From the IMG/VR virus record IMGVR_UViG_3300034061_000872, positions 1-28,225 of that record: a DNA stretch of 28,225 nt; one strand, written 5' to 3'. The stretch's first letter is position 1, and each line of letters begins with the position of its first letter. Both the position numbers and the translations under genes were made by a program. Shown piece by piece: positions 4,901-11,310 of the stretch. The DNA is from a virus. Below the pieces are notes generated by a model that saw nothing but the letters and a program-made list of their open reading frames with translations, was not told the DNA's origin and did no database searches.

Positions 4901-4924
4901 GGGGGAGGGGCGGCTCATGCCGCC
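4901..4924 (-). terminator. Possible terminator overlapping the VWA-like gene's stop
   Basis: On the - strand GGCGGC (4919-4924) pairs with GCCGCC (4909-4914) around the loop ATGA, which contains the stop codon, followed by C-rich sequence and TTTT. The stem is only 6 bp but all G-C. Together with the promoter just downstream it would split the leftward cluster into two transcription units. Confidence 0.45.
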
Positions 4925-5703
4925 GCCGCCGCCCGTTGCCAAAGTTTCATCACCGTCTGGACTGCGCGTTCAGGGGTCGAATACTCGTCGCCGCTGATGT
5001 TCGGGATGGCGAGGTCGCAGTCCCTGCACTCGTCTGCGAAGTGGGTAGAGACCCCGTATGAATCCACCACGCTAGGGGTCATGAATTCCAAGACCCGAAA
5101 GAAGAACCGGCGCAGCATGATGGGCGTTGCAAAGCACAGCCCGACCCTATCCATGTCGATGGGTTCCTCAGGTCGTTTAACCGTGACAGACCAGACGAAC
5201 TTGTCATTGCTCCTGAAATCGTTGCCGTGCTTGATTGCAATCAACTCGACACGCCGACCGGACAGTTGAATCCGGTCGATGAGCGAGACGATAGCGACAC
5301 CACGGTTTACGATGTCCTGTGCGTCCACATGGCAGTTAGCCGACATGTTCACGGCGATGCGGACGATGGGCGACGGTGACGGCGGTGCGATGTCGGACAT
5401 GGCGAACATGTCCTCCGGAACACCGGCTGCATTCGCCGGGATGCAAGGGAACGCGCCGACCGGAGCCGTGTCCCACATGGGTTCCGGTTCCATCGTCACT
5501 TTGACCGCCGCAGACTCGATTGCAGCGCGTCCAGCGGGGTGACCCTTGACGGCGTACTCCAGTGCATCTTCCCATGTCTCGCAGCCCGACCAGTCAACCC
5601 GACCAACTGACTCCGACCCGCCATCAGCCCAGTTGATTTTGCGGGTGCGGAGGTCATGGACAAACTCGTCCCATGATTCTGCGGTGTAGCGGTAAACGGT
5701 CAT
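4915..5703 (-). CDS. VWA-like (DUF7192-like) partner of the AAA+ ATPase
   Basis: 262 residues from the ATG at 5703, which overlaps the ATPase stop by ATGA; an upstream extension is rejected because that ATG lies deep in the ATPase gene. Residues 1-60 (YRYTAESWDEFVHDL... ETWEDALEYAVKGHPAGR) form one conserved-looking block. Residues 113-157 (IVRIAVNMSAN ... IVSLIDRIQLSGRRVELIAIK) have the strand-motif-helix-strand plan of a von Willebrand A domain, with NMSAN where the DxSxS metal site would be, so metal binding is probably altered. It resembles what I know as DUF7192 proteins. MoxR-type ATPases usually pair with VWA proteins, which supports the reading. It would act as an adaptor that links the ATPase to its target; the target is unknown. 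Confidence 0.65.
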   Translation of the reverse strand: MTVYRYTAESWDEFVHDLRTRKINWADGGSESVGRVDWSGCETWEDALEYAVKGHPAGRAAIESAAVKVTMEPEPMWDTAPVGAFPCIPANAAGVPEDMFAMSDIAPPSPSPIVRIAVNMSANCHVDAQDIVNRGVAIVSLIDRIQLSGRRVELIAIKHGNDFRSNDKFVWSVTVKRPEEPIDMDRVGLCFATPIMLRRFFFRVLEFMTPSVVDSYGVSTHFADECRDCDLAIPNISGDEYSTPERAVQTVMKLWQRAAAAA

Positions 5704-6701
5704 GCTGCTTTCCTCTTGGGCATGTTGGATCGAACCTTGTCGATGTCGAGCGCGGACAGGTTGCGGGTCAGTACGAGTTCCTCGACACGGTTCCAGTCGA
5801 GACCGGCTGACAGCAACTTGCCACCCTTGATGGATGCACGGGGCGACACTACATGGCGCAACTTCAACTCGCGCACTGCCTTGCGGAACGCTTGGACATG
5901 GCGCGTCCACTGGTCATTGGGCGAGATGGCGAGTTCCAGACGCTCGTCATAGTCCATCGCGACAAACGAGAACCGGTCGAGGGTCGCGGCATCCAACTGC
6001 GACCGCCCGACATACTGGGCATCAGCACCGGCTCCGAAGGTATTCGCAGCGGCGATGATGACGAAGTCGGCGTGGCGTTTAACCGTGCCGCAGGGGAATG
6101 CGGCGAGGTCATTGGCAGCGATGGCGTTGAACGCGAGCAGTGCCTGAGCGGACGATGCGTCAATCTCGTCGAACAGGAACACGCCCCCGCCCACATAGGC
6201 ACGGTACAGGTCGGTCTCCATGTACTTGCCTTCGGCGTTGATGAACCCTTGCAACTGATACGCCATGCCGACAGCGCCGGTCGAGTAGAACGGCAGTTCC
6301 AGTGCGTCAGCAGCCTGAGCCGCGATGGTCGTTTTGCCTGACCCCGCAGGGCCGACGAGGTACACATTCTCGCGAACAGACAGGGCGGCGAGGACATCCG
6401 CGAACACTGCGTGACGGTGACCCGCAGGGAGGGTACGGATGGTCGCACCCTGCTTGATTTCAATCCGCACAGGGCGGTGCTGCTCGACCGCAGCGACTGC
6501 CGCAGCAATGGCATCACGGCGGATGCCTTCGATGGTCTCAGCGTCAAGGGACGCAGCAGCCACCGGGGCGGGGTCAACCCCGTTCCAAATGGCGACGAGG
6601 ACATCGTCGGATGCGTTGGGCGACTTGCCCTGCCGCACGGCATGCATCTTCAGGTACGAACGGTCAGAGTCGCTGAGGGGCAGCGAGAAGGTGCGATTCA
6701 T
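5700..6701 (-). CDS. MoxR/CobS-like AAA+ ATPase
   Basis: 333 residues. The ATG at 6701 (MNRTFSLPLSDSDRSYL) is preceded by GGAGG at good distance, so earlier in-frame ATGs are rejected. Walker A GPAGSGKT at 117-124, Walker B VFLFDEID at 174-181, sensor-1 Asn in AAANTFG (about 220), arginine finger LDRF (241-244) and a sensor-2-like SPRAS (286-290). The pattern fits the MoxR/CobS/NorQ group of hexameric ATPases, which use ATP to remodel protein complexes together with a VWA-domain partner; the next gene is a VWA-like candidate. The N-terminal about 100 residues are variable and helical. Two bases separate it from the peptidase stop. The family call is firm; the substrate is unknown. Confidence 0.85.
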   Translation of the reverse strand: MNRTFSLPLSDSDRSYLKMHAVRQGKSPNASDDVLVAIWNGVDPAPVAAASLDAETIEGIRRDAIAAAVAAVEQHRPVRIEIKQGATIRTLPAGHRHAVFADVLAALSVRENVYLVGPAGSGKTTIAAQAADALELPFYSTGAVGMAYQLQGFINAEGKYMETDLYRAYVGGGVFLFDEIDASSAQALLAFNAIAANDLAAFPCGTVKRHADFVIIAAANTFGAGADAQYVGRSQLDAATLDRFSFVAMDYDERLELAISPNDQWTRHVQAFRKAVRELKLRHVVSPRASIKGGKLLSAGLDWNRVEELVLTRNLSALDIDKVRSNMPKRKAA

Positions 6702-6703
6702 GT

Positions 6704-7315
6704 TCAAGCCTCCAGTTTCAAGGTTTCGTACTTTCCGCAGACAGGGCAAGCGGACAGGCCATGCAGCCGGTTCGCCTGAAGGGCGGACACACGCGCCGTC
6801 CACCCGCAGCCAGAGCATTGCAGTTTCAGCAATCGCGTCCCCTGCTTCTTGCGGCTATTCGGATCGATTTTCGCGTGAGGATACGCGCCCAGAATCTGCG
6901 CGATGTCGGCAAGTTCCGCAGACAACCACGCACCGGCAGTGGTCGAGGTCAGCGCACCGACGAGGTCGATGCCACGGGCGACCCGTGCGAACTCGCCACG
7001 GTGACCGCACTGGATACCCGCCCAGACATGCGCCAGTTCGTGCGCGAGAACGGCGAGGACATCCAACGGACGGTCGAGGATGGGGTTGATGAACACCTCG
7101 AAGGTGCCATCCGCAGAGATGGACGGGTCGAATGCCTGACCTAGTGCCACCTTGCCTGACCGGGAACCCCGGTACCCAATGGGGAACCCACATGCGACAC
7201 GGTATCGACGCTGCTCCCACTGCGCGGGTTCAATCCCTGCACGGGGGAACACTTGGTGCTGTAGGGCGACGGCAGCAGCCGCCAACCACGGTTCGCGTTC
7301 GGTGAAATTGGTCAT
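6704..7315 (-). CDS. SprT-like zinc metallopeptidase with zinc ribbon
   Basis: 203 residues from the ATG at 7315, with AAGGAGAA upstream and an ATGA overlap with the preceding gene. HELAH (92-96) is the catalytic zinc motif (HExxH), with His105 in CGHRGEF as probable third ligand. The C terminus has a zinc ribbon, CSGC (167-170) and CPVC (190-193). This arrangement is that of SprT/Spartan-like proteins; the eukaryotic member degrades DNA-protein crosslinks, but the role of phage versions is not established. It is directly followed by the ATPase and VWA-like genes, suggesting an ATP-driven proteolytic or remodelling unit. That link is inference. Confidence 0.8.
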   Translation of the reverse strand: MTNFTEREPWLAAAAVALQHQVFPRAGIEPAQWEQRRYRVACGFPIGYRGSRSGKVALGQAFDPSISADGTFEVFINPILDRPLDVLAVLAHELAHVWAGIQCGHRGEFARVARGIDLVGALTSTTAGAWLSAELADIAQILGAYPHAKIDPNSRKKQGTRLLKLQCSGCGWTARVSALQANRLHGLSACPVCGKYETLKLEA

Positions 7316-7659
7316 GATTGTTCTCCTTCGCAATCCCATGCGTGATAGGTGTCCACCCCGTCAGGGTTGGTCTCATCGTCGAAATCGTCGCCCGTGTACA
7401 GGTCGAAAGCGTCTTCCTCTCCCAGATGCTCAACGACCTGATACACGACCCGCTCACAGGCGTGTCGAGTCGGTCTGCGTGACCATCTCTGCTCGTTGCA
7501 GCCGACAACCCAGACCCATCCGCTGTGAACCTGTCTGGCGTAGCCGCTGTAGGTCTCTACGCGCTCGTGAATCTGCTGCTCGTAGTCGCGTTCCGTTTCC
7601 TCAGTCTCGTGACCCCAGTCACCGAAACGCTCATCGAATCGCACGATTTCATTTTTCAT
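7312..7659 (-). CDS. Hypothetical acidic protein, 115 residues
   Basis: ATG at 7659 is preceded by GGGAGGG; a TTG two codons earlier is less likely. Strongly acidic, with Glu/Asp-rich N terminus (FDERFGDWGHETEETERDYE) and an acidic end (YTGDDFDDETNPDG). An aromatic segment HSGWVWVVGCNEQRWSR lies in the middle. High negative charge recalls DNA-mimic proteins, but no family is recognised and this is only a thought. Stop overlaps the SprT-like start by ATGA. Confidence 0.7.
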   Translation of the reverse strand: MKNEIVRFDERFGDWGHETEETERDYEQQIHERVETYSGYARQVHSGWVWVVGCNEQRWSRRPTRHACERVVYQVVEHLGEEDAFDLYTGDDFDDETNPDGVDTYHAWDCEGEQS

Positions 7660-7661
7660 GT

Positions 7662-7832
7662 TCAACCCTCCCTCAAGAAATATTCACGACCGCTGTCATC
7701 TTCGTCCAACTCGTCTGGGTGCATCCCGTCCGTGTCGTAGTCCCAGATTTCGACATCGATATTGTCCGGTGCCTCGATGACTTCGGGGATACCACGCCTG
7801 ATGGTGACCACTACTCGCTTCTTCTCGCTCAT
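7662..7832 (-). CDS. Hypothetical small acidic protein, 56 residues
   Basis: The start at 7832 (MSEKKRVVVTIRRG...) has AGAGGAGA upstream and an ATGA overlap with the preceding gene; the longer frame from 7913 lies wholly inside that gene and is rejected. Basic strand at the N terminus, then a very acidic half (YDTDGMHPDELDEDDSGREY). Sits between two other acidic proteins in the same operon. Confidence 0.7.
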   Translation of the reverse strand: MSEKKRVVVTIRRGIPEVIEAPDNIDVEIWDYDTDGMHPDELDEDDSGREYFLREG

Positions 7833-8242
7833 GACTTGTTCTCCTCTTTGACCTGAACATCGCAGGTCACCGTCCAGTTGACGAACTCGTACTTGTCGTG
7901 GTCGAGACGCCATCGTAGGCGCAGTTGCTCCGCCAACAACTTGACGACCTTCTCCTCATCGACCTTGCCGCTCGTATCGACAGCGTCCGCCAACTCCACA
8001 CTCAACTTGTTCGGAGCGGGGTCGTCCTCGTCCACCATGTGCGCGTCGGGGTCTTCGTCCCATGTCGTCCAGTACGAATCGCCGTCGCCATCGGCATAAG
8101 CCTCCTCCCATTCCTTGGGTGAGTAGTGCTTGTGCAAGCAAGCATCGGAGCAGTAATACTCACAGCCGCTGTCGATGCAGTAGCCCTCGTTCATGCCCTT
8201 GCCGCACTCGTCGCAAGTACGGGCGTATTTCTTGTAAGCCAT
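7829..8242 (-). CDS. Zinc-finger-like protein, first gene of leftward operon
   Basis: 137 residues. The N terminus holds CDECGKGMNEGYC (10-22), CEYYC (27-31) and C35, i.e. CxxC plus further cysteines with His37/His39, a likely one- or two-zinc binding domain of the kind seen in small phage proteins. The middle is acidic (DEDPDAHMVDEDDPAP) and the C terminus is a helix plus strand (KVVKLLAEQLRLRWRL). As first gene behind the operator-like promoter it could be an early regulator, but no DNA-binding motif is certain. Confidence 0.75.
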   Translation of the reverse strand: MAYKKYARTCDECGKGMNEGYCIDSGCEYYCSDACLHKHYSPKEWEEAYADGDGDSYWTTWDEDPDAHMVDEDDPAPNKLSVELADAVDTSGKVDEEKVVKLLAEQLRLRWRLDHDKYEFVNWTVTCDVQVKEENKS

Positions 8243-9576: not shown

Positions 9577-9801
9577 TGTTATAAAGGATTGCGAGTCGAG
9601 GGACTGACTAAAGGTGAACACGAGCAATCCATACATCGAAGTGATGCGTTAAAGGGGATATTGTAAGGGAATATTGTAGTGTCAATCTCTACACCCCCCT
9701 TTTGAGGGGGGGGTGTAGAGAAGAGGTGATAGGGGAGACGGCGCGAAGACAAAGTTGTGATGAAACGGGGGCTATTGTCCCTGCATTTTGAGGTACATTC
9801 G
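9577..9801 (+). promoter_or_regulatory. Structured leader RNA of the late operon
   Basis: About 225 untranslated bases. GGATTGC (9586-9592) pairs with GCAATCC (9624-9630), enclosing AGTC/GACT (9594-9597 with 9602-9605). A very stable 14-bp hairpin follows (9686-9699 with 9708-9721, loop of 8 bases). Between them a near repeat GGNATATTGTA occurs at 9655-9665 and 9668-9678. A 12-codon frame (GTG 9614 to TAA 9652) could encode a leader peptide. No T-tract follows the large hairpin, so it is not a standard terminator. Confidence 0.55.
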
Positions 9802-11310
9802 ATGCATATCACTCAGGAAAACCTTCCTAGAATCATGGGTTTAGTGAAAACCCTACCTGAGGATCAGCAGAGAGAGTTTTATGGGCTTCTTGAGGAGTAT
9901 GAGAAGGCCAAGACGAAGGAATTGTCTCAAGAGAGTTTCATTTCGTTCGTGCATAGGGTGTGGCCCGGTTTCATTTCGGGTCGGCATCACAAGATCATGG
10001 GTCAGAAGTTTGAGGAAATCGCTTCTGGCAAACTCAAGAGGCTGATCATTTGTATGCCACCCCGGCATACCAAGTCTGAGTTCGGGTCTTTTCTGTTTCC
10101 CGCGTGGTTCTTGGGCAAGTTCCCCCAGAAGAAGGTGATTCAGTCTTCTCATACTGCGGAACTGGCGGTAGGTTTCGGGCGTAAGGTCCGTAACTTGGTG
10201 GATTCGGAGGACTACCGGGCTGTATTCCCTGATACATCCCTTCGGGCGGACTCCAAGGCGGCAGGTAGGTGGAGTACCTCCAAGGGGGGTGACTATTTCG
10301 CCATTGGTATCGGGGGTGCTGTCACCGGTAAGGGTGCGGATCTTCTGATCATCGATGACCCCCATGATGAACAGGAGGGTCAGTCTTCGGATCCTGCCGT
10401 GTTTGACCATGCGTATGAGTGGTACACCTCCGGACCCCGCCAGCGTCTTCAGCCGGGTGGGGCGATTGTGGTGATCTGTACCCGTTGGTCGAAGCGGGAT
10501 CTGGTAGGGCAGGTTCTCAAGGCATCCGCCCAGAGAGGGGGGGATGAATGGGAGGTCATTGAGTTCCCGGCAATCCTTCCTTCTGGCAAACCCCTGTGGC
10601 CTGAGTTCTGGCCCTTAGAGGAACTGGAGGCTATCCGGGAAGAAATCCCTACCCATAAATGGCAGGCCCAGTACCAGCAGAATCCCACCTCCGAAGAGGG
10701 CGCACTGATTAAACGGGACTGGTGGAAGGTCTGGGAGCAAGACAGACCCCCGCAGTGTCAGTTTTTGATCCAGTCATGGGATACCGCGTTCCTGAAGAAG
10801 GAGCGATCAGACTACTCAGCCTGTACCACTTGGGGTGTTTTCTACCACCCAGATGGGGCAGGGGCGATGCAGTCGAACATCATTCTTATGGATGCCCATA
10901 AGGAGAAGATGGAGTTCCCAACCCTCAAGAAACGGGCATGGGAGTTGTACAACTACTGGAAGCCGGATGCCCTGATTGTGGAAGCCAAGGCGGCAGGCAC
11001 CCCCCTGATATTCGAACTGAGGGCCATGGGTATCCCCGTATCGGAATACACCCCGTCACGCGGTAATGATAAAGTTGCCCGTGTAAACGCCATTGCTGAT
11101 CTCTTCTCCAGTGGCAGGATATGGCGACCCAACACCCGTTTTGCGGAGGAAGTGGTTGAGGAATTTGCGTCTTTTCCTGCCGGAGAGCATGATGACTATG
11201 TGGACTCAGGGACGCAGGCTCTCCTACGCTACCGCAAGGGAGGGTTCATCTCCCTCCAGTCTGATTACAAGGATCAGCCGGTCTACAAACGAAAGACTTC
11301 CTACTACTGA
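9802..11310 (+). CDS. terL: Terminase large subunit
   Basis: 502 residues. The start MHITQENLPRIM at 9802 is preferred over an in-frame GTG/ATG at 9757/9760 because GAGG lies about 8 bases upstream and the extra residues look unlike the family. This is the packaging motor and headful nuclease: ATPase with Walker-A-like MPPRHTKS (85-92), Walker B LLIIDDPHDE (181-190), the family motif WQAQYQQNP (287-295), and an RNase-H-fold nuclease with acidic residues Asp327 (QSWDTAF), Glu394 (LIVEAKAAG) and Asp464/465 (EHDDYVDSG). It acts at the portal vertex with the small subunit. Very confident. Confidence 0.96.
   Translation: MHITQENLPRIMGLVKTLPEDQQREFYGLLEEYEKAKTKELSQESFISFVHRVWPGFISGRHHKIMGQKFEEIASGKLKRLIICMPPRHTKSEFGSFLFPAWFLGKFPQKKVIQSSHTAELAVGFGRKVRNLVDSEDYRAVFPDTSLRADSKAAGRWSTSKGGDYFAIGIGGAVTGKGADLLIIDDPHDEQEGQSSDPAVFDHAYEWYTSGPRQRLQPGGAIVVICTRWSKRDLVGQVLKASAQRGGDEWEVIEFPAILPSGKPLWPEFWPLEELEAIREEIPTHKWQAQYQQNPTSEEGALIKRDWWKVWEQDRPPQCQFLIQSWDTAFLKKERSDYSACTTWGVFYHPDGAGAMQSNIILMDAHKEKMEFPTLKKRAWELYNYWKPDALIVEAKAAGTPLIFELRAMGIPVSEYTPSRGNDKVARVNAIADLFSSGRIWRPNTRFAEEVVEEFASFPAGEHDDYVDSGTQALLRYRKGGFISLQSDYKDQPVYKRKTSYY

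Follow-up and report, generated by a model that had tools for sequence, protein, structure and literature searches.

A phage operon that brings together a MoxR-type ATPase, a DUF7192 protein of VWA fold and an SprT-like zinc protease: a candidate remodelling and proteolysis module

The AAA+ ATPases of the NorQ-NorD, CbbQ-CbbO and CobS-CobT systems have the gene for a VWA partner next door. The VWA domain of NorD bears a pore-inserting finger, one strand joins this finger to the MIDAS residues, and NorD MIDAS mutants still bind NorQ but fail to act on the target (PMC13036017, PMC9976466). In jumbo phages, MoxR is accompanied by a VWA protein fused to an N-terminal metallopeptidase, and a role in virion assembly has been proposed for this pair (PMC7824862). 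A precedent of another kind is the protease SPRTN, for which p97 or FANCJ unfolds the crosslinked protein (PMC12279946), and SprT-like proteins of mycobacteriophages have been noted as SPRTN-like (PMC12363180). CobS-like ATPases of phages have been described as cobalamin genes (PMC11705849, PMC11288001). The family DUF7192, to which one of the proteins reported here belongs, was named in no paper found by our literature search.

The stretch of DNA analysed, called the window in the following, is a virus record of 28,225 bases from a water-borne phage. On its minus strand, genes for an SprT-like protein (7315-6704), an ATPase (6701-5700) and a DUF7192 protein (5703-4915) follow one another. The first two are separated by a 2-base gap (6702-6703), the last two share an ATGA overlap (5700-5703), and Shine-Dalgarno-like sequences precede all three starts. 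The initial annotation had described three adjacent coupled genes with the motifs HELAH, GPAGSGKT, VFLFDEID, LDRF and NMSAN and a zinc ribbon; its coordinates, lengths and junctions were verified and every motif was found. Comparison with relatives yielded dN/dS values of 0.08-0.21 in all three genes, indicating purifying selection, and these values, along with the invariant residues of the ATPase and the SprT-like protein, argue that the motifs are more than chance. In the window and in its relatives, the trio is located outside the structural genes on the strand opposite to the terminase-portal block; synteny of terminase and portal is common to the window's group and its marine relatives. 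Upstream of the trio and on its strand, a Cys-rich protein of 137 aa is encoded (7829-8242), which matches PHROG 30009 (6e-15).

The ATPase (333 aa; 5700-6701, minus strand) matches Pfam AAA_5/AAA and PHROG 249, which carries the label 'porphyrin biosynthesis'. Walker A, GPAGSGKT, comprises residues 117-124 (6330-6353), and Walker B, FLFDEID, was assigned from the alignment to residues 175-181 (6159-6179). Among 40 diverse homologues, G117, G120, G122, K123, D178, E179, N220, R243, and R288 are invariant. A profile built from these homologues matched CobS (2.6e-20), CbbQ (1e-14), NorQ (1e-12), and also midasin, and the matches to CobS, NorQ and CbbQ span most of the AAA+ motor. Walker A, Walker B, sensor 1, arginine finger and sensor 2 are all present, and with the profile matches they place the protein in the MoxR/CobS/NorQ/CbbQ clade, as had been supposed from its motifs. 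The score for the CobS equivalog TIGR01650 was 16.1 bits, compared to a curated cut-off of 558.55, and the 'cobS' and 'porphyrin' labels published for such phage ATPases are not supported by our data. A profile search of genome contigs with the ATPase alignment gave zero confirmed relatives.

The third gene specifies a protein of 262 aa (4915-5703, minus strand) that belongs to DUF7192 (PF23822, E=5e-27; 95.4 bits, gathering cut-off 27). An AlphaFold model calculated with 50 homologues (pLDDT 91.5, pTM 0.83) displayed a VWA fold, in agreement with the earlier proposal. When this model was compared to the PDB with Foldseek, the four best matches came from NorQD complexes, each a VWA chain of NorD (E 9.7e-5 to 2e-3, probability 0.97-0.99), and the next unrelated match followed at E 0.03. 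VIA-align also placed NorD first (Z 7.4), ahead of Rea1-MIDAS (Z 6.8), the remainder being largely VWA domains. Z-scores of 7-8, as obtained here and for the SprT-like protein below, lie in a range in which a shared fold alone is possible. NorD, Rea1-MIDAS, Ku, TFIIH p34, and integrin VWA/I domains dominate the match list, and among viral models the best matches beyond DUF7192 are phage CobT/VWA proteins. The DUF7192 sequence profile detected nothing among PDB sequences at E up to 1, and a sub-clade profile reached CobT no better than E 0.8, in the right register but without significance. ATPase profile and DUF7192 fold independently indicate one and the same class, a MoxR motor with its VWA partner.

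At the position of the MIDAS motif DxSxS, the DUF7192 protein has NMSAN (residues 119-123; 5335-5349). The protein had been called a degenerate VWA protein for this reason, and both the broken MIDAS and the VWA fold stand; the degeneracy, however, is a property of the whole family and not of this protein, since DxSxS was found in none of 50 DUF7192 sequences (26 have N and 17 have D at the first MIDAS position). The most conserved segment of the family, residues 77-102 with invariant G83 and G94 (5398-5475), is modelled as a short strand-helix-strand immediately before the first VWA strand. By position, this is where NorD has its finger, and the segment may be its equivalent. If so, DUF7192 proteins would have retained the coupling to the motor with a changed grip on the target. 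Compared to the partners in NorQ-NorD, CbbQ-CbbO and CobS-CobT, the DUF7192 protein has the fold nearest to the NorD VWA domain and a conserved segment at the finger position, but lacks an intact MIDAS and is only about 260 aa long. The phage operon further differs from these systems in that a zinc protease is added and the ATPase is no CobS equivalog.

For the first gene (6704-7315, minus strand), a zinc metallopeptidase of 203 aa is predicted. It contains HELAH at residues 92-96 (7028-7042), GHxxxF at residues 104-109 with H105 as putative third zinc ligand (6989-7006), and a C-terminal zinc ribbon of the type CxxC...CxxC (C167, C170, C190, C193; 6737-6817), the last recognised from sequence and alignment. 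Residues H92, E93, H96, G104, H105, and F109 are invariant in 18 homologues; the zinc ribbon is incomplete in two relatives (L068 and L069). The assignment to the SprT-type zincins holds by these motifs, by PHROG 6361 and by fold, and not by Pfam, since the SprT-like profile PF10263 gave 15.2 bits with a gathering cut-off of 25.6. The homologue in a Geminisphaera element described below scored 23.9. Human SPRTN (6mdw) was the top PDB match of the model (pLDDT 84.7; Foldseek E 5e-4, Z 7.7), which is supportive rather than decisive because Z is below 8. Weak zinc-ribbon matches, and nothing else, were obtained with the SprT profile among PDB sequences. The phage protein shares with SPRTN/Spartan the SprT zincin fold, HExxH and a C-terminal zinc-binding domain, but contains little beyond the SprT domain. 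SprT-like proteases of the same family (27-44% identity) occur on their own in phages of Arthrobacter, Microbacterium, Bordetella, and others. In the regions read, no ATPase-DUF7192 pair was present within 5 kb, and these lone relatives sit among replication genes, next to SSB in two cases and to DNA polymerase in several.

The distribution of the three genes was determined in 135 distinct loci from viral contigs, cultured phages and genomes, with DUF7192 counted at up to 900 nt behind the ATPase and SprT within 2.6 kb. Of 80 distinct loci with enough room, 79 have DUF7192 directly downstream of the ATPase. SprT adjoins the pair in 40/74 loci, and, seen from the SprT side, the pair is present in 40 and absent in 28 of 68 distinct loci; among representative lineages, 24 of the 40 that were informative have the pair without SprT. 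As the loci were collected by similarity to the window genes, none of these fractions is a population frequency. Trios recur in both gene orders, and at least three genome types unrelated to each other carry them; the SprT label takes five changes on the ATPase tree, at least two of which are forced by well-supported branches. Rare co-occurrence of the three genes, which by the initial annotation would have spoken against the unit, was not observed. Since the pair lacks SprT in many phages, the protease seems to be an accessory of a pair that is itself more widespread, and not an obligate third subunit.

Individual relatives illustrate this distribution. The trio of L079 is accompanied by a helicase, an exonuclease and a different terminase. 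An integrated element of Geminisphaera colitermitum TAV2, which also encodes an integrase and a protein for replication initiation, shows the tight order ATPase-DUF7192-SprT (L196:4001-6588), and the same order is found in L074. The SprT protein of L033 is 74% identical to that of the window, while its ATPase (41%) and its DUF7192 protein (22%) belong to a distant clade. From this combination it appears that in L033:3445-6049 / L099 (IMGVR 3300036770_002623) a distant pair has replaced the original one as a unit behind a window-like SprT gene. Kayvirus and mycobacteriophages have the same adjacent pair (DUF7192/PHROG 1909 with PHROG 249) and no SprT alongside; matches to PF23822 come from 235 records of Staphylococcus phages and 77 of Mycobacterium phages. 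Mycobacterium phage Silverleaf contains two DUF7192 genes, one of which adjoins the ATPase (L118:3313-4197 and 7378-8050). In Tunturiibacter phage Tunturi_4, where a 2.4-kb stretch without annotated genes lies just upstream of the pair (L213:1206-3579), SprT was not found in roughly 5 kb to each side of the pair. SprT was also not found in HTVC027P, phage DSL-LC04 and CRP-810, an empty answer that is weak evidence; in HTVC027P, relatives of the ATPase were searched for as well, with the same outcome. The terminases of the window (9757-11310) and of Pelagibacter phage HTVC027P share 55% identity. Other HExxH proteins near pairs without SprT were apparently chance matches, and an alternative protease was not found.

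We consider it most plausible, with a probability of roughly 0.45, that the operon specifies one ATP-driven remodelling and proteolysis module whose likeliest substrate is a DNA-bound protein. The gap and overlap of the genes and their repeated co-occurrence support the coupled unit proposed in the initial annotation. In such a module, the AAA+ protein would form a MoxR-type ring motor and the DUF7192 protein would act as its dedicated partner, transmitting force in the manner of NorD after loss of the grip that a metal-dependent MIDAS provides. The SprT-like zincin, in physical complex with both, would cleave the protein loosened by the motor. The substrate might be a protein tightly or covalently bound to DNA that is encountered in phage replication, as for SPRTN and its unfoldase. 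A DNA-bound protein is the first guess because of the SPRTN fold, the lone SprT genes among replication genes and the published precedent of unfoldase and SPRTN acting together. It counts against the module that the NorQD and CobST motors function in metal insertion and not in proteolysis. A more specific version, in which the trio would be a phage analogue of SPRTN-p97, the MoxR motor and a VWA adaptor without MIDAS replacing p97 to unfold proteins stuck on DNA and feed them to SprT, must be regarded as rather doubtful.

The trio could also comprise two separate functions sharing an operon, in which an SprT protease would work independently of a MoxR-VWA chaperone. Neither SprT nor the pair needs the other everywhere, as each stands alone in many genomes. 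On the other hand, their adjacency recurs in unrelated lineages in both orders, and SprT was kept beside a swapped pair in L033, which makes separate functions unlikely. Mere chance neighbourhood was set aside in view of the variable gene order between lineages and the same swap.

Still less probable is a role in virion assembly or maturation, with the chaperone building a part of the virion and the zincin trimming a structural protein. It would be directly analogous to the proposal for the jumbo-phage pair (PMC7824862), and that paper also cites a MoxR-VWA chaperone that serves the tail of Acidianus two-tailed virus. MoxR motor, VWA and metallopeptidase are the three ingredients in common, a likeness in composition. 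The trio is different from the published kind by gene separation and by families, since peptidase and VWA are not one polypeptide in the window, the VWA protein is of the DUF7192 type and the peptidase belongs to the SprT family. Agrobacterium phage Atu_ph07 was tried as a source of the jumbo-phage pair and rejected, its ATPase matches being weak and the one scanned ClpB-like. Against a virion role, the trio lies away from the structural genes on the other strand, lone SprT relatives neighbour replication genes, and the Kayvirus pair is found among small hypothetical genes. Host takeover or counter-defence, in which the module would degrade or disarm a particular host or defence protein, is about equally improbable. 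Host targets are favoured for phage SprT zincins (PMC7824862), SprT presence is patchy and pairs were exchanged in place (L033), whereas low dN/dS and conservation from freshwater to marine phages fit a core function equally well.

That the pair represents auxiliary genes for cobalamin or other metal insertion (cobS/cobT-like) with SprT as a chance neighbour, as CobS-like ATPases of other phages have been interpreted (PMC11288001, PMC11705849) and as PHROG 249 and the CobS profile match might suggest, is very improbable given the equivalog score, the absence of an intact MIDAS from 50 DUF7192 proteins, the repeated association with SprT in unrelated genomes, and the much longer annotated CobS and CobT of CRP-810 (617 and 650 aa). 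In CRP-810 (L183:1827-5645), one name, CobT, covers two different proteins, the lower-ligand-activating enzyme in the paper (PMC11288001) and the cobaltochelatase subunit CobT in the record.

These analyses give the unnamed family DUF7192 a place beside a MoxR motor, as its partner of VWA fold, and call into question the 'porphyrin biosynthesis/cobS' labels of DUF7192-linked ATPases in phage genomes. The operon also offers a small two-plus-one system for asking whether an AAA+ motor feeds an SprT protease. If the analogy to SPRTN-p97 were true, phages would own a machine for clearing DNA-protein crosslinks, and the orphan DUF7192 would have a role.
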